Assembly (NCBI GenBank): GCA_022574255.1
Contig: JACZSK010000011.1
Span: 1 to 48,757 of the forward strand
Source of the DNA: Pseudomonadota bacterium
Lineage (GTDB): Bacteria; Pseudomonadota; Alphaproteobacteria; Sphingomonadales; SMXR01
Direction of reading: 5' to 3'
Length of the DNA stretch: 48,757 nt
The position numbers and the translations under genes were made by a program. Positions within the stretch are counted from its first letter, which is position 1. Each line of letters opens with the position of its first letter. The notes under the pieces are model-generated. The model did no database searches and was not told where the DNA came from. It was given only the letters and a program-made list of their open reading frames with translations. Shown piece by piece: positions 16,075 through 23,887 of this stretch.

Positions 16075-16152
16075 ATGTGCGATTTTCGGCCTTCAGGGTT
16101 AACGATTGGTTGCCAAGGCGGGAGATCTGCCATTTTCACAGGAGGGCAGCCC

Positions 16153-16824
16153 ATGCTGCACGCGCCAGGTAAATCCACTGGAAAATCCACTGGCAACTTC
16201 TTAGGAACCGCGACCGTCCTGGCCGCCATCCTGGCCGTCGGTGGCTGTTCTGTGCTGTTGGCAAAGATTGTCCCCAGTCATAACCAGACCGTCGATATGT
16301 CAGCCCTTCCGTCTGGCCGCTATGTGATGGATCCGGCCCATGGTTCGCTGCATTTCAAGGTGGATCACATGGGCTATTCGATTTATGTGGCGCGCTTCAA
16401 CGATATTGAAGCCACCTTCCAGTTTGACAATGCGAAACCCGAGGAAAGCGCGCTGGCCGTTGTCATCGCCGCCGACAGCGTCGATACCGGCAATGCGCGC
16501 ATGGACGATTTGTTAAAAGGCACTGACTTCCTGCACGCCAGGCGCTTTCCGCGCATCACCATCGAAGCGAGCGGGATTACCATCCTCGACGAGAAATCCG
16601 GCGTCATCGACAGTACCCTCACCTTTCACGGCGTGACAAAGCAGATACCGCTATACATCACCTTCAACGGTGGCGCCAAAAACCTGCTGACCGGCAAATA
16701 TACCCTGGGCTTTTCCGCAACAGCGACGCTGCAACGCTCGGATTTCAATATGAAAGCCTATATCCCACTGGTGGGCGACGAGGTAACGATAGAAATAGAA
16801 GCGGAATTCCAGAAGAAGAAATAG
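16153..16824 (+). CDS. YceI-family periplasmic lipoprotein
   Basis: A 223-residue protein from the ATG preceded by GGAGGG. An N-terminal signal ends in a lipobox-like AVGGC, then a YceI domain runs to the end: DPAHGSLHFKVDHMGYSIYVARF, later RFPRITIEASGI and the FSATATLQRSDFNM strand. YceI proteins are lipocalin-like barrels that bind isoprenoid lipids. It is followed after 22 bases by a cytochrome b561 and a second YceI gene, a recurrent trio that suggests quinone-linked periplasmic redox work. An upstream in-frame start (16075) lacks a good ribosome site. Confidence 0.87.
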   Translation: MLHAPGKSTGKSTGNFLGTATVLAAILAVGGCSVLLAKIVPSHNQTVDMSALPSGRYVMDPAHGSLHFKVDHMGYSIYVARFNDIEATFQFDNAKPEESALAVVIAADSVDTGNARMDDLLKGTDFLHARRFPRITIEASGITILDEKSGVIDSTLTFHGVTKQIPLYITFNGGAKNLLTGKYTLGFSATATLQRSDFNMKAYIPLVGDEVTIEIEAEFQKKK

Positions 16825-16846
16825 CGACCGGGAAAGGAGCCATGCC

Positions 16847-17476
16847 ATGTCGTTTCGTAACCGAAATGACAACCGGGGAAACGGGAATGCGCGATACGGG
16901 ATGGTCGCCATCCTTTTGCATTGGCTGATCGCGGGCATTATTTTCGGCCAGTTGTGGATCGGCTTCTGGATGGAAGACCTGGCAAAGGGATCCTTCGACC
17001 GGTTCCAGGCATTGCAGTGGCATAAATCCGTGGGGCTGACCATCCTGATCCTGTCGGTGGGGCGTCTGGTCTGGCGCCTGATGAACCCGGCGCCACCCGC
17101 GCCGCCGCAGATGAAACCCGCGGAACGGCGGCTGGCGGGCGCGGCGCATGCTGGCCTTTATTTCCTGATGATCGCCGTGCCCCTGGCCGGATGGGCAACG
17201 GTATCCGCCTCGCCATTGGGGCTGCCAACAACGTTGTACGGGGTCATCGACTGGCCACATATTCCGATGCTGGCCAACGCCGCCGACAAGAAAGCGGCGG
17301 AGCAACTGATGCATGAAATTCATGGGGTTCTGGTTTTTTCCCTGATCGGGCTTTTTCTGCTCCATATTCTGGCCGCACTTCGCCATCAGTATCTGCTGAA
17401 GGACAACGTGATCGCGCGCATGGTACCGTGGCTTGGCGCAGGGGGCGGGCAAGACGCGTCGCCGAACCAGGATTGA
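16847..17476 (+). CDS. cytochrome b561
   Basis: A 209-residue inner-membrane di-heme cytochrome with four hydrophobic segments. Likely heme ligands are H25 (LLHW), H59 (WHKS), H159 (MHEIHG) and H173 or H180 (LLHILAALRH). The protein is thought to move electrons between the quinone pool and periplasmic acceptors. AGGAG stands 8 bases before the ATG. It lies between two YceI genes and is probably cotranscribed with both. The tail after residue 195 is Gly/Asp-rich and not conserved. Confidence 0.9.
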   Translation: MSFRNRNDNRGNGNARYGMVAILLHWLIAGIIFGQLWIGFWMEDLAKGSFDRFQALQWHKSVGLTILILSVGRLVWRLMNPAPPAPPQMKPAERRLAGAAHAGLYFLMIAVPLAGWATVSASPLGLPTTLYGVIDWPHIPMLANAADKKAAEQLMHEIHGVLVFSLIGLFLLHILAALRHQYLLKDNVIARMVPWLGAGGGQDASPNQD

Positions 17477-17486
17477 GGCACAGAAA

Positions 17487-18050
17487 TTGCCCAGGATATT
17501 CATTGCCGCCCTGCTTTACGCGCTGCTCTCGCAATCGGCGGCAGCCGCGGAATGGCGCGTTGCGAATGCCGACAGTCATATCGCCTTTCATGGCAGCATG
17601 CTTGGCGTTCCTGTCACCGGCTATTTCACGAAGTTCGAAAGCCAGATCGACTTTGACCCCGATGATCTGGAAGGCGCGCATCTGTCCATCCTCATCGACA
17701 TGACGGCGGTGAACACCGCCCATGAAGAGCGGGATACCGCCCTGAAGCTGCCGGAATGGTTTGCGGTGCAATCATACGCCCAGGCCAAATTTACCGCCAC
17801 CCGGTTCCGGCGCACCGGCGACGGCGCCTTTGAAGCGATTGGGTCGCTGACCGTCAAGGGCATGGAAAAGGATATAACCCTGCCCTTCTCCCTGGCGATT
17901 GATGGTGACACCGCTGTTGTTTCGGGCTCGATTGACCTCAACCGGCGCGACTTTAATATCGGCGATGGTGATTGGGCGAACGACCGGCTGGTGGCGTTCG
18001 ATGTGCGGGTTGAATTCAAAATTGTCGCGGCGCGGGTTTGCCCGCAATAG
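17487..18050 (+). CDS. second YceI-family periplasmic protein
   Basis: A 187-residue protein if started at TTG 17487, which gives a clean signal peptide (MPRIFIAALLYALLSQSAAA) with GAGG 8 bases upstream. An ATG at 17433 in the same frame would overlap the cytochrome gene by 44 bases and add 18 basic residues. The YceI domain is visible in ADSHIAFHGSMLGVPVTGYF, the mid-domain LTVKGMEKDITLPFSL and the final SIDLNRRDFNIGDGDW. It differs from the upstream YceI in having a normal signal peptide, not a lipobox, so the pair may place the same fold in two locations. Confidence 0.85.
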   Translation: MPRIFIAALLYALLSQSAAAAEWRVANADSHIAFHGSMLGVPVTGYFTKFESQIDFDPDDLEGAHLSILIDMTAVNTAHEERDTALKLPEWFAVQSYAQAKFTATRFRRTGDGAFEAIGSLTVKGMEKDITLPFSLAIDGDTAVVSGSIDLNRRDFNIGDGDWANDRLVAFDVRVEFKIVAARVCPQ

Positions 18051-18584: not shown

Positions 18585-19289
18585 ATGACAGATCAAAAAA
18601 AAGCCGTGGTTCTGCTCTCCGGTGGGCTTGACAGCGCCACCGTGCTGGCTTTGGTCCGCGACGCGGGCTATACGGCCCATGCCCTGTCTTTCCGCTATGG
18701 CCAGCGCCATGTAGTGGAACTGGAGGCAGCGGCAAGGGTCGCCGAAGCCCTGGAAGCAGCAGAGCACAAAATTATCGACATTGACCTTGCCGCCTTTGGT
18801 GGCAGCGCGCTGACCAGCGACATTCCGGTGCCCAAGGGCCGCGACACGAAGGCCATGGAGGCGGAAATTCCCATCACCTATGTGCCGGCGCGGAATACGG
18901 TTTTTCTGTCGCTCGCGCTGGCCTATGCCGAAGTGCTGGAGGCGCGGGATATTTTCATCGGCGTCAATGCGCTGGACTATTCAGGCTATCCCGATTGCCG
19001 GCCAGACTTTATCGCGGCCTTCGAGGTAATGGCCAATCTGGCAACCAGGGCGGGGGTCGAGGGCCAGGCTGCCGGCGCCGCGCCGATCAGGATTCATGTG
19101 CCGCTGATCGACATGAACAAAGCCCAGATTATCGCCCGCGGCAGTGATCTCGGCGTCGACTATGGCATGACCATTTCCTGCTATGACCCCGGCCCGGCGG
19201 GCGCCGCCTGTGGCGCCTGCGATTCCTGCCTGTTGCGCAAGAAGGGCTTTACCGAGGCGGGACTTCCCGACCCCACGCGGTATCAATGA
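18585..19289 (+). CDS. queC: 7-cyano-7-deazaguanine synthase
   Basis: QueC converts 7-carboxy-7-deazaguanine to preQ0 using ATP and ammonia, in queuosine synthesis. The 234-residue length is normal. The PP-loop motif is SGGLDS (12-17). The zinc site is Cys199, Cys209, Cys212 and Cys215 (C-x9-C-x2-C-x2-C). The stop overlaps the queE start by four bases (ATGA), so the two are translationally coupled. The 6-carboxytetrahydropterin synthase gene queD is not in the window. Confidence 0.96.
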
Positions 19290-19927
19290 CTTACGCCGTA
19301 AAAGAAATTTTTTTCACCCTGCAGGGCGAGGGCGCCAATACCGGCCGCGCCGCCGTTTTCATGCGTTTCGCGGGCTGTAACCTGTGGTCAGGGCTCGAGC
19401 GCGATCGGGCCGGCGCGGTGTGCAGTTTTTGCGATACCGAATTCGTCGGCACCAACGGCCCCGGCGGCGGCAAATTCGCTGACCCCCGGGAATTGACCAG
19501 AAAGGCGCTGGAGACCTGGCCGGCAGATATGGCGGTGCGACCCAGGCCGCTGATCGTGGCCACCGGCGGCGAGCCCCTTTTGCAACTTGATGAGGCGCTC
19601 ATTGATGCCTTTCATGAAGCCGGATTTGAAGTGGCGGTGGAGACCAACGGCACCCTGCCCGCCCCGCCCGGGCTTGACTGGATCTGTGTCAGCCCCAAGG
19701 CGGACGCGGTGTTGCGCCAACGTTGCGGCAATGAGCTGAAGCTGGTTTATCCGCAGGAAAATGTCGATCCGGAAACTTTCCGGGCGCTGGAATTCGATCA
19801 CTTTTTCCTGCAGCCCATGGATGGGCCAAAGCGGGCGGAAAACACCGACGCGGCAATCCGTTATATTCAGGCGCACCCGGAATGGCGTTTATCCATTCAA
19901 ACCCATAAGCTTATCGGAATACCTTAA
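19286..19927 (+). CDS. queE: 7-carboxy-7-deazaguanine synthase, CX14CX2C type
   Basis: A radical-SAM enzyme that forms the deazaguanine ring from carboxytetrahydropterin. The cluster ligands are C31, C46 and C49, giving CX14CX2C in place of the classic CX3CX2C. This matches the known Burkholderia-type QueE subgroup with an enlarged cluster loop. The N-terminal [11 protein letters not shown] and the TGGEPLLQ motif are present. At 213 residues it is typical of that subgroup. Coupled to queC by ATGA overlap. Confidence 0.95.
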
Positions 19928-19952: not shown

Positions 19953-21113
19953 TCAGCGCACGCGGCGGATATGCTGGCGCGTGATCTCGCCCACGTTGCG
20001 GCAACCGAGCAGGGCCATGGCGCGCTCGACCTCGGCTTTCAACAGGAAAAATGCGCGGGCAACCCCGGCCTCTCCACCGGCGCCAAGACCATACAGATAG
20101 GCGCGGCCCACGGAGCAGGCCGTGGCGCCCATGGCCAGCGCCTTCAGCACATGTTTGCCGCGGCGCACACCACCGTCGCAGATGATCTCGACGCGGTCGC
20201 CAACCGCGTCGGCGATTTCGGCAATCTGGTCAAAGGGCGCTGGCACGCCATCAAGCTGACGGCCGCCGTGGTTCGAGACCATGATCGCGCTGGCTCCTAT
20301 GTCGGCGGCGCGGCGCGCGTCATCGACCGACATGATACCCTTGATGACAAAAGGCCCACCCCATTCCTGGATCATCCATTCGGCATCCTTCCAGGTAACC
20401 GAACGGTCAAACATTTTGGACACATATTTTGCCAGGGAGGCCAGACCGTCATCGTCCCTGGCCTTCAGGTGATCCAGATTCGCCAACCGGAATGGCGGTT
20501 TGAAAAGGTAATTCCAGCACCAGTGTGGATGCCGCAGCACATCAAGCATGCTCATCAGCGTCAGTTGCGGCGGTATGGTCATGCCGGTGTACAGATCGCG
20601 CTCGCGATTGCCGTGAACGGGCAAATCGACGGTCAGGCACAGCGCGTCGTAACCGGCCGCCTTGCAGCGGGAAATAAGCTCTCTGACCGGCGCGCGCTCC
20701 CGCTGGACGTAAATCTGAAACATCTTCGGCCCATCGCTGGCGGCAGCCACTTCTTCAATGGAATAGGTCGACAGCGTCGATAATGAAAAGAGCGTGCCGG
20801 CATCGGCCGCCGCCCGCGCCACCGCCAGCTCACCGTCGTGGTGGAAAAGCCGGCCCATTCCCGTGGGCGCGGCAAAAACAGGCCAGTCGATATCCACGCC
20901 CAGCACCCGGGTTTTCATGTCGATATGTTCGACATCCACCAGGATGCGCGGAATCAGCTCATAATCGCTGAAAGCCCCAATATTGCGCTGCAGGGTTTCC
21001 TCGTCGTCAGAGCCACCGTCCATGTAGGAGAATATGGGCAACGGCAACCGCCGCCTGGCCAGCTCGCGCAGGTCGTAGATGTTAAAACAGCGCTGCAGTC
21101 CCCGTGCGGCCAT
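19953..21113 (-). CDS. lldD: FMN-dependent 2-hydroxyacid dehydrogenase (LldD-like)
   Basis: A flavoenzyme of the glycolate oxidase / L-lactate dehydrogenase family, 386 residues from the ATG at 21113. The fold is an FMN-binding TIM barrel. Family features are YMDGGSDDEETLQRN near the N-terminus, the FAAPTGMGRLFHHDGE strand, LTVDLPVHGNRERD, and the catalytic His/Arg motif SNHGGRQLDG followed by the FMN phosphate stretch ICDGGVRRGKHVLKAL. The open frame extends into queF; I chose the ATG with AGGAAG six bases upstream. The next ATG up (21119) is also possible. It starts ten bases after the queF stop, so the two are cotranscribed. Confidence 0.9.
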   Translation of the reverse strand: MAARGLQRCFNIYDLRELARRRLPLPIFSYMDGGSDDEETLQRNIGAFSDYELIPRILVDVEHIDMKTRVLGVDIDWPVFAAPTGMGRLFHHDGELAVARAAADAGTLFSLSTLSTYSIEEVAAASDGPKMFQIYVQRERAPVRELISRCKAAGYDALCLTVDLPVHGNRERDLYTGMTIPPQLTLMSMLDVLRHPHWCWNYLFKPPFRLANLDHLKARDDDGLASLAKYVSKMFDRSVTWKDAEWMIQEWGGPFVIKGIMSVDDARRAADIGASAIMVSNHGGRQLDGVPAPFDQIAEIADAVGDRVEIICDGGVRRGKHVLKALAMGATACSVGRAYLYGLGAGGEAGVARAFFLLKAEVERAMALLGCRNVGEITRQHIRRVR

Positions 21114-21123
21114 GCCCATCTTC

Positions 21124-21591
21124 CTATCCCCTGCCCCGGTAAGGCGCAATGCCAGTATCGGGGAGGTAAATGTCCGCGGGCGCCGGACCGGTTTGATAGA
21201 AGACATCGATGGGAATTCCGCCACGGGGATACCAGTAGCCCGATATCCTCAGCCAAACCGGCGAAACCGCATCGACGATGCGACCGGCTATGGCCAGCGT
21301 GCAATCCTCGTGAAAGGCCGCGTGGTTACGAAAGGACTGCAGAAACAGCTTCAGCGATTTGGATTCCAGAATCGTGCCATCCGGCACATAATCGATAACG
21401 AAATGGGCGAAATCCGGCTGGCCGGTGACCGGACACAGGGAAGTAAATTCGGGGCAGGTGAAGCGCACCAGATAAATCTTGTCCGGGTGAGGATTTGCCA
21501 CAGCCTCAAGATGCGCCTGATCGGGATTGGCGGGTATTTCCACCTTCTTTCCCAACTGCGAGAGCTCTTCGGTATTGCGATTTTCGGCCAC
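21124..21591 (-). CDS. queF: NADPH-dependent preQ0 reductase, short (type I) form
   Basis: QueF reduces the nitrile of preQ0 to preQ1, the base inserted into tRNA. At 155 residues it is the unimodular form. The catalytic Cys is C53 in [12 protein letters not shown], and the family motif is ESKSLKL (76-82). [10 protein letters not shown] carries the conserved His/Glu. It lies convergent to queC-queE across lldD. Together with yhhQ at 0.6-1.3 kb, most of the preQ1 route is present. Confidence 0.95.
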
Positions 21592-22036: not shown

Positions 22037-22773
22037 GGCTGACCGCAAACTGGCATTGGAGATTGCCGCGACAATATGTCGTCTGGCGAAAACCGCCACT
22101 TCGTGATCCATTCAGAGCGTTAAGTTTTCTCTCTGGCAACTGGTGCCATCGGCATCAAGACAGGGGGTCCGTGGACCGGCAGGCAATCGCCCCCAGCAGG
22201 CCGACCCGAGTTGAAGGGATAACGAAGCACGCCTCCCGTTCTTCCCCTTCGCGGGCCCCCCGTTTTTGCCGCCCCGACACAGCAGACGCGACACTTTGCC
22301 ACGTTTCATGGACCGCACCCCCGTGCTATTGCTGCAAATGCAACACACCATCCTGGCAGAACCTGGCGGGGTCTCGCTAAGGTGCCAGAGGGAGCCTCCC
22401 GGATCGGCAATTCGATGCCCCGGACACCCCGGCCCCCGAAAGCGCCAACCTAACCAAGCGGGCCCCGCCTTTCTTTGCCAACAGCTTCCCTTATCCGCAG
22501 CGCCGGCCGGCAGCGCCGGATTCGCATTTTTTGCGATAACGCAATTGTGACGGGCGCTTGAATTCCCACGGGACTACAACTAGTGTGACAACGCGCGGAT
22601 GATTCTCCGCGCAAAGCATGTCGCCTCCTTATGCGAGGCCTTGTCTGCTGTGCTAGCCCGCGCCAACACAGCAGTGCAACAGGAAGCGACAGATGAAGTC
22701 CGATCCTTTCGGGGGCACCGTAAAAGGGCGGAATTCAGGTAAAGGTACCAGGCGCCTAAGGAGGAAAACGAGA
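22037..22773. other. gene-free stretch with operator-like palindromes upstream of the Cys-repeat gene
   Basis: No convincing gene in about 740 bases. It holds the palindrome TTGCG-ATAA-CGCAA (22531-22544), a GCCTC...GAGGC repeat (22623-22639), and CTGCTGTG...CACAGCAG (22645-22652 and 22667-22674), the last about 100 bases before the Cys-repeat start. These are candidate operators or leader hairpins. Confidence 0.4.
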
Positions 22774-23036
22774 ATGATGAAGAAAACGCTTAAGACACTT
22801 AGCCTTGCGGCTATTGCCAGCACGGCTGCTCTTGTAGCCCTGCCGGCTGCCCAGGCAGCAATCGACGCACCCACATCTATTGCGGGCTGCAGCGGTGCAA
22901 AGGCTGCAAAGGCTGCAAAGGCTGCAAAGGTTGTCATGGCTGTAAAGGCTGTGGCGGCTGTGGCGGTTGTGGCGGCTGCAAAGGTTGTGGCGGCTGCGGT
23001 GGCTGCGGTGGCTGCAAAGGTTGTGGAGGCGCGTAA
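22774..23036 (+). CDS. exported (Cys-x-Gly) repeat peptide, interrupted by a one-base frameshift
   Basis: TAAGGAGG (22757-22764) precedes the ATG. Residues 1-28 are a signal peptide ([20 protein letters not shown] then VALPAAQA). After IAGCSG (residue 41) the annotated frame turns into Ala/Lys/Val low complexity to a TGA at 23049. The -1 frame, from TGC at 22896 to TAA at 23034-23036, reads 15 perfect Cys-x-Gly triplets (x = Lys, His or Gly) plus a final Ala. TGC/TGT and GGC/GGT alternate at third positions only in this Cys frame, so it is the selected one. Adding one base in the Gly codon at 22894-22896 would give an 87-residue preprotein with 16 Cys. I recognise no named family; a metal-binding or modified peptide is inferred. 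A terminator follows at 23082. Confidence 0.72.
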
Positions 23037-23081
23037 AACGCCTTCCTGAGGCATACCTTCGGGATTGTCTCAATTGAAATT

Positions 23082-23121
23082 CCAGCCCGTGACGTGTTAA
23101 GCGTTGCGGGCTGGTTTTTTT
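23082..23121 (+). terminator. Rho-independent terminator after the Cys-repeat gene
   Basis: A perfect 8-bp stem CCAGCCCG / CGGGCTGG with a 17-base loop is followed by TTTTTTT (23115-23121). It separates the Cys-repeat gene from the His-rich gene, so readthrough or a second promoter is needed for the latter. Confidence 0.85.
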
Positions 23122-23155
23122 GTGCTTGGCGGTATAGCGCCGCAGGATCAGGGCT

Positions 23156-23887
23156 ATGGAAATTTCACTGCAATCACTGAGTGACGATCGCATCCGATCC
23201 ATGCTGGAAGCGGGCCAGATGGTGTTGAACTGCCATCGCGTGCTGGCGAAAACCGGCGACACCATCGTCGGCGAATTGCTCAAGGATTATGAAGGTTTTT
23301 ACGAGTGGAAGCATTATCCGCGCGGCGACATCTACGATCCGGAAAGCCACTGCCAGTACTATTATCACACCCATTCCATCGGCGATCGCGAAGCTGAACA
23401 CGGTCATTTCCACTGTTTTCTTGACTATGACGCCCGCCCCGACGGTTTAATGCCGATCCTGATGCCGCCGCCCGATTGTGATGGCGACACCGAAACGCTG
23501 ACCCACCTTGCGGGAATTTCAATGGACGAAATGTCGATTCCCATACGTCTTTTCACGGTCAACCGCTGGGTTACCGACGAAGTGCTATACAACGCCCCGG
23601 ACATGATCGGAATGGTCGACAGTTTCGAGATTGATACCGCCAAACCCTCCTGGCCGGTGAATATATGGGTCAGCGGAATGCTGCAATTGTACTACCCGCA
23701 TGTTTGCGAATTACTGACCCGGCGCGACCAGACTTTCGACAAGTGGCTGGCCGATCACCCGGAGCAAAAACCGGAAGAAATGTGGGAAAACCACGACCTG
23801 GAAGTGACCAGTGTGATCGATATATCTGTGGACGACCATATCCAGGCGTTGGTGGCTGAAGCGGAGCGCCGCGGTATTCCGGTCTGA
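23156..23887 (+). CDS. His-rich cytoplasmic protein of unknown function (possibly DUF6969)
   Basis: A 243-residue soluble protein without signal peptide. A conserved-looking N-terminal block reads LEAGQMVLNCHRVLAKTGD, then EWKHYPRGDIYDPESHCQ, then a dense motif YYYHTHSIGDREAEHGHFHCF with five His and one Cys, which looks like a metal site or active site. A later part (about 115-175) has RLFTVNRWVTDEVLYN. I have a tentative memory of this as DUF6969; no function is known to me. It stands 120 bases after the exported Cys-x-Gly peptide gene, same strand. The pairing suggests a shared metal or peptide-modification role, which is inference. The ribosome site is weak. Confidence 0.75.
   Translation: MEISLQSLSDDRIRSMLEAGQMVLNCHRVLAKTGDTIVGELLKDYEGFYEWKHYPRGDIYDPESHCQYYYHTHSIGDREAEHGHFHCFLDYDARPDGLMPILMPPPDCDGDTETLTHLAGISMDEMSIPIRLFTVNRWVTDEVLYNAPDMIGMVDSFEIDTAKPSWPVNIWVSGMLQLYYPHVCELLTRRDQTFDKWLADHPEQKPEEMWENHDLEVTSVIDISVDDHIQALVAEAERRGIPV

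Follow-up and report, generated by a model that had tools for sequence, protein, structure and literature searches.

The window, a stretch of 48,757 nucleotides from an alphaproteobacterium of the order Sphingomonadales, contains a gene for a Sec-exported peptide built from a cysteine array, followed by a gene of the DUF6969 family. Across genomes, array genes and DUF6969 genes are functionally linked, both by their adjacency and by their co-occurrence at the genome level. By analogy with the bufferins, we propose that they form an exported Cys-array system that would be bufferin-like yet non-homologous, with DUF6969 as the cytosolic partner or maturase, a reading to which we give an even chance. 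The exported part would be a protein whose mature portion carries regularly spaced Cys among Gly, Ala, Asn, Pro, and Lys, and would occur either as a short peptide of about 85–120 amino acids or with a longer array to which a haem domain is fused. The second part would be a cytosolic DUF6969 protein. In the window, the two genes are laid out as follows.

22758–22764, forward strand: Shine-Dalgarno sequence AAGGAGG, 9 bases upstream of the ATG at 22774, read from the sequence
22774–22857, forward strand: Sec signal peptide of 28 residues (profile E 3e-9), with the cleavage site placed by eye
22858–22896, forward strand: start of the mature peptide, 13 residues including the in-frame Cys-Ser-Gly, read from the sequence; relatives are single-frame here
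22896–23030, forward strand: (Cys-x-Gly)15 array in the −1 frame, x being Lys, His, or Gly, with silent-only variation of the Cys and Gly codons
23031–23036, forward strand: final Ala codon and TAA stop (23034–23036) of the array frame, read from the sequence
23082–23121, forward strand: intrinsic terminator or attenuator with a 14 bp stem and T7, between the peptide gene and DUF6969
23156–23887, forward strand: DUF6969 protein (PF22308), 243 amino acids, intact and full length (Pfam E 2e-73)
23366–23374, forward strand: HxH of DUF6969 (H71, H73), invariant in 59 sequences
23396–23419, forward strand: EHGHFHxF of DUF6969 (E81–F88), invariant in 59 sequences

The initial annotation had described a ribosome-binding site and a signal peptide leading into 15 Cys-x-Gly triplets in the −1 frame and then a stop, and each of these elements was recovered at the positions above. 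The start codon is doubled (ATGATG). A profile built from the N-terminal regions of eight short Cys peptides that adjoin DUF6969 in other genomes had the window ORF as its sole significant match among 1240 ORFs of the window, and at E 3e-9 this match confirms the start and the signal peptide of the gene. The signal peptide belongs to the same family as those of the short peptides beside DUF6969 elsewhere. The reading frame breaks at the end of the mature-peptide start, at about 22891–22896 and near the first Cys. Past the break, frame 0 reads as an Ala/Lys/Val repeat, the −1 frame carries the array, and the third frame contains a stop. The 15 Cys of the array and the one of the in-frame Cys-Ser-Gly give the 16 that had been counted in the reframed peptide. 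The genome has no other array of the Cys-x-Gly kind.

Codon variation was compared between the frames over the 15 nine-base units of the array. In the Cys-x-Gly frame, the 15 Cys codons comprised eight TGC and seven TGT, and the third-column Gly codons 11 GGC and four GGT, with no replacements in either column. Pairwise codon differences in this frame were 114 silent versus 63 replacing, all of the latter at the x position, compared with 21 silent versus 151 replacing in the Ala/Lys/Val frame. The silent-only variation of the Cys and Gly codons indicates that the Cys-x-Gly frame was under selection until recently, which bears out the frame choice of the initial annotation. The contrary reading, in which the real product would be the Ala/Lys/Val repeat and the neighboring DUF6969 gene would be unrelated, has in its favor that this frame is open from the ATG. 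It is contradicted by the frame test, by the co-occurrence of the two genes, and by the homologues, which conserve the Cys array and not the Ala/Lys/Val frame that the initial annotation had named as the outcome that would overturn its view. We consequently ruled this reading out as hardly credible. The Cys peptides of relatives are encoded in one continuous frame with their signal peptides, whereas the window gene is not in the present assembly. Given intact relatives, an intact DUF6969 partner, and an array that still bears the signature of purifying selection, the break is either a recent loss or an error of the assembly. A programmed −1 shift near the first Cys, by which the Cys-x-Gly product would be made from the same mRNA, might draw on the −1 frame being open 5' of the array and on the A-AAG steps that recur in frame 0. 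However, related peptides are single-frame without any shift, and the junction by eye lacks a standard slippery heptamer, which makes programmed frameshifting very unlikely here. In two array-P460 genes elsewhere (L162 in genome G086 and L165 in G184), a frame change or a TGA interrupts the reading frame much as in the window gene, so such repeats may occasionally be misassembled or lost.

Neither reading of the window peptide matched a Pfam family, those for metallothionein, copper storage protein, and Buf1/DUF2282 included. No NCBIfam model scored above its cut-off; the best was HxsA4 with 17.6 bits against a cut-off of 55, and on this sub-threshold score, membership in HxsA was ruled out. 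A P460 label given to the window by automatic labelling was an artefact of CKGCHG. The gap between the array gene and DUF6969 is about 120 bases and holds the terminator, which would favor the peptide over its partner and thus suggests that more peptide than DUF6969 is made. One and the same scan detected a hairpin with a T-run in this intergenic position at loci L034, L032, L104, L107, and L122, and none at L036, L046, L056, L065, and L105. A search against Rfam showed no structured RNA near the two window genes.

The neighboring 243-residue protein, noted initially for its His-rich stretches, proved to be an intact DUF6969 protein, matching PF22308 with 246.5 bits against a cut-off of 27 over profile positions 2–201 of 201. 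It has no visible signal peptide at its start and is probably the cytosolic partner or maturase of the array. An alignment of 59 DUF6969 sequences contained 23 invariant residues, seven of which are His. The invariant residues include H53, H71, H73, E81, H82, H84, H86, and H117, all of them present in the window protein, as well as R190. Structures were predicted for the window protein (pLDDT 89.8) and a relative (pLDDT 94.0), and a fold search with both models against the PDB gave no match at E 0.001 or better. A sequence search of the PDB likewise found no relative of DUF6969, and PHROGs gave no match. An enzyme role for DUF6969 is weakened by this lack of a fold or catalytic homologue. Among the open-access papers searched, none named DUF6969, PF22308, or the strings CNPC/NPCAAK, and related work on RiPPs or P460 contained nothing on a DUF6969-array system. 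In a tree of the family, the nearest sequences to that of the window were from L031 and from L036/L048, the latter having a KCNPCAAK peptide 95 bases upstream of DUF6969. Two further sequences, from Phormidium willei (L047) and a Mesoflavibacter MAG (L110), are filed under Cyanobacteriota and Bacteroidota, yet group with alphaproteobacteria in the tree, and their contigs are probably contamination or misnamed.

The presence of arrays and DUF6969 was surveyed in 190 alphaproteobacterial genomes, and gene neighborhoods were examined at 80 DUF6969 loci from species genomes, a set later enlarged to 97 loci with relatives from the same order. The initial annotation had proposed co-occurrence of peptide and partner in related genomes as a check, and the two do occur together. 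DUF6969 was present in 39 of the 190 genomes. Cys arrays of the NPCAA type were found in 12 genomes from 12 families, and all 12 contained DUF6969 (P 1.2e-9, a value that overstates independence as the sampled genomes share descent, though the families differ). Arrays detected by either search occurred in 20 genomes, 18 with DUF6969 (P 1.3e-12), and unusual repeat types in DUF6969-negative genomes may have escaped these searches. Around the 80 loci, 36 Cys-array genes lay within 3 kb of DUF6969 versus one at 3–6 kb. In the enlarged set, an array gene stood beside DUF6969 at about 40 of 97 loci, after discounting one spurious call (L071) that the automatic Cys-gene filter had labelled positive through a shadow ORF. 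The array and DUF6969 can also be on different contigs, as in the window's own genome (array on contig C8) and in genomes G141, G184, and G185. When sequences beside DUF6969 were inspected, the share of DUF6969-positive genomes with an array came to 26 of 39, and the extra cases found in this way were kept out of the statistics. In the other 13, including Azospirillum, neither the searches nor the sequences around DUF6969 revealed an array, and DUF6969 may therefore have a different or broader role. In Azospirillum, the DUF6969 gene lies downstream of an MCE/Mla transporter operon. A single genus outside the class contributed three small genomes with DUF6969 (L220, L221, and L222), none of which had an array within 1.5 kb of the gene. 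A DUF2336 protein was encoded downstream of DUF6969 at 37 of the 97 loci (among L044–L117).

The layout common to relatives consists of a signal peptide, a Cys array, often a terminator, and then DUF6969. Short array peptides are often encoded directly upstream of DUF6969 on the same strand, 95–295 bases away, and their repeats include CNPCAAK, KCGAK, and CAAEGC. In Thalassospira, the array peptide gene is divergent and about 1.4 kb from DUF6969, with an FGE-like gene in between. The repeat sequence varies freely (NPCAAK, KCGAK, CGAC, CAAEG, CxG), while the Cys spacing and the signal peptide persist. The longer arrays occur as fusions with either of two unrelated haem domains, P460 or SoxA/TsdA. 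P460-like proteins with arrays were found in 16 genomes, of which 14 had DUF6969, compared with none of the five genomes that had only array-free P460-like proteins (Fisher 0.001). By this comparison, the presence of DUF6969 goes with the array rather than with the haem domain. Array-P460 proteins without DUF6969 were present in genomes G067 and G183, whose assemblies consist of 810 and 410 contigs. In three genomes of other classes, DUF6969 adjoins arrays fused to a SoxA/TsdA-type cytochrome c. Such fusions beside DUF6969 were observed at four loci (L210, L212, L214, and L215), one of the genomes being alphaproteobacterial.

The genome from which the window derives is 3.07 Mb in 192 contigs and 94.6% complete, with the window being contig C152. 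A second array protein in this genome, on contig C8 (L125:4942–5478), has 19 Cys in NPCAA/GGC repeats and is cut by the contig end ahead of any haem domain. No P460 protein was found in the genome by Pfam, and a P460-like match on contig C25 was set aside as marginal (E 8e-4). Contig C74 carries two more DUF6969 genes in tandem (L004:4419–6019), flanked by a NarK-like transporter gene on one side and a desaturase-like gene on the other, and no Cys array lies close to them. Elsewhere in the window, genes for queuosine synthesis (queC, a queE-like ORF, and queF, at 18585–19927 and 21127–21591) surround an FMN-dependent dehydrogenase (19956–21224), and a cytochrome b561-like ORF lies between two YceI proteins (16075–18050).

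A protein of the FGE-sulfatase family (PF03781) is encoded upstream of DUF6969 at 46 of the 97 loci, including L027, L043, and L061. Many of these proteins have hydrophobic, signal-like starts. All 38 that were aligned carry GGSWDDxGCGxCR with two invariant Cys, and in the class survey this motif was found in seven genomes, each time beside DUF6969. This invariant GCGxC is unlike the Cys pair of classical FGE, and the FGE-like neighbors may represent a new FGE subfamily with a CxxC pair. No FGE-like protein of the CGxC type is encoded in the window's own genome, where the sole FGE match is EgtB-like and lies beside an EgtD-like ORF.

The mechanism that we consider most likely is that DUF6969 acts on the Cys array before Sec export, as a metal-dependent enzyme or a loading factor. 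By analogy, it would take the part of the MNIO enzyme in the bufferin system, either modifying the array or loading it with metal ahead of export. The exported array would then bind a soft or redox-active metal in the periplasm, with copper as the first candidate. A more specific form of this proposal, which we hold tentatively and as somewhat short of an even chance, is that the DUF6969 proteins are metalloenzymes of a new family which modify cysteines or insert metal and whose fold is not yet represented in the PDB, defining a new class of Sec-exported Cys-array peptides and proteins. Together with the FGE-like CGxC protein and the array-haem fusions, these would make up an unrecognised periplasmic metal or redox system of Alphaproteobacteria and other Pseudomonadota.

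Two other functions were weighed against this proposal. The arrays could act as unmodified, metallothionein-like metal sponges of the periplasm, with DUF6969 as a cytosolic metal- or thiol-handling factor or a regulator that keeps nascent arrays reduced or metal-free until export. The same co-occurrence data agree with this possibility, the terminator between the genes suggests a peptide in excess of its partner, and a freely varying repeat sequence would suit a sponge. However, the 23 invariant residues, with HxH and EHGHFHxF among them, resemble an active site more than a buffering chaperone, and unmodified exported arrays have no obvious need for a dedicated and conserved cytosolic partner; we therefore regard sponges as unlikely, though as the most serious competitor. 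More doubtful still is a role of the arrays as thiol, persulfide, or electron relays serving P460-like and SoxA/TsdA-like haem enzymes in the metabolism of nitrogen or sulfur compounds, with DUF6969 and the FGE-like protein maturing them. Fusion of arrays to two different haem domains, one from a sulfur-handling family, and the FGE-like CGxC protein next door are consistent with relays. Against this, many arrays are stand-alone short peptides without a haem domain, including that of the window, and the window's own genome has no Pfam P460, although its long array protein on C8 is truncated.

The linkage described here provides a first functional context for a Pfam family of unknown function in which no fold relative could be detected, and connects this family with exported Cys arrays carrying two kinds of haem domain. 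As cultured hosts exist (several Thalassospira species), Cys modification or metal loading by DUF6969 is directly testable.

Small Cys-dense proteins such as bacterial metallothioneins and copper storage proteins are thought to hold soft metals. The window peptide is similarly dense in Cys; however, its array is exported and has a dedicated DUF6969 partner. It also differs from the long array proteins, which have cytochrome P460 or SoxA/TsdA cytochrome c as C-terminal domains, in having no haem domain. Formylglycine-generating enzyme family members (PF03781), encoded directly upstream of many DUF6969 genes, are absent at the window locus. In overall plan, the bufferins come closest: a cytosolic MNIO modifies Cys of their Sec-exported precursor, which then holds periplasmic copper (PMC12452194). 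Bufferins and oxazolins (BufA/HvfA), which are encoded with an MNIO enzyme and a DUF2063 partner, are widespread in Pseudomonadota, and some of their precursors are long; rare Buf1/cytochrome c/FGE-sulfatase fusions are also on record (PMC12452194). Like the DUF6969 system, they combine a Sec signal peptide on a Cys-motif precursor with an adjacent cytosolic partner and a wide occurrence in Pseudomonadota. The initial annotation had argued that known HvfA/BufA systems do not fit, as no MNIO-type enzyme was adjacent, and this argument extends to the whole genome: a search for MNIO (PF05114) was negative in the 94.6% complete assembly and positive in two control genomes. Neither DUF2063 nor DoxX was found among the scanned neighbors in the window. 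In place of MNIO, the window system has DUF6969, which is unrelated by Pfam and without a PDB fold match, and its precursor repeats are not those of Buf1, Buf2, or EGKCG. With no MNIO, no Buf signature, and an unrelated partner, a bufferin identity was ruled out. Bufferins thus already exemplify the plan, in which an exported Cys precursor has a cytosolic partner of its own, while sharing no homologous part with the system described here. Should DUF6969 prove to modify Cys or to load metal, evolution would have arrived at a bufferin-like strategy on at least two occasions, using unrelated enzymes.
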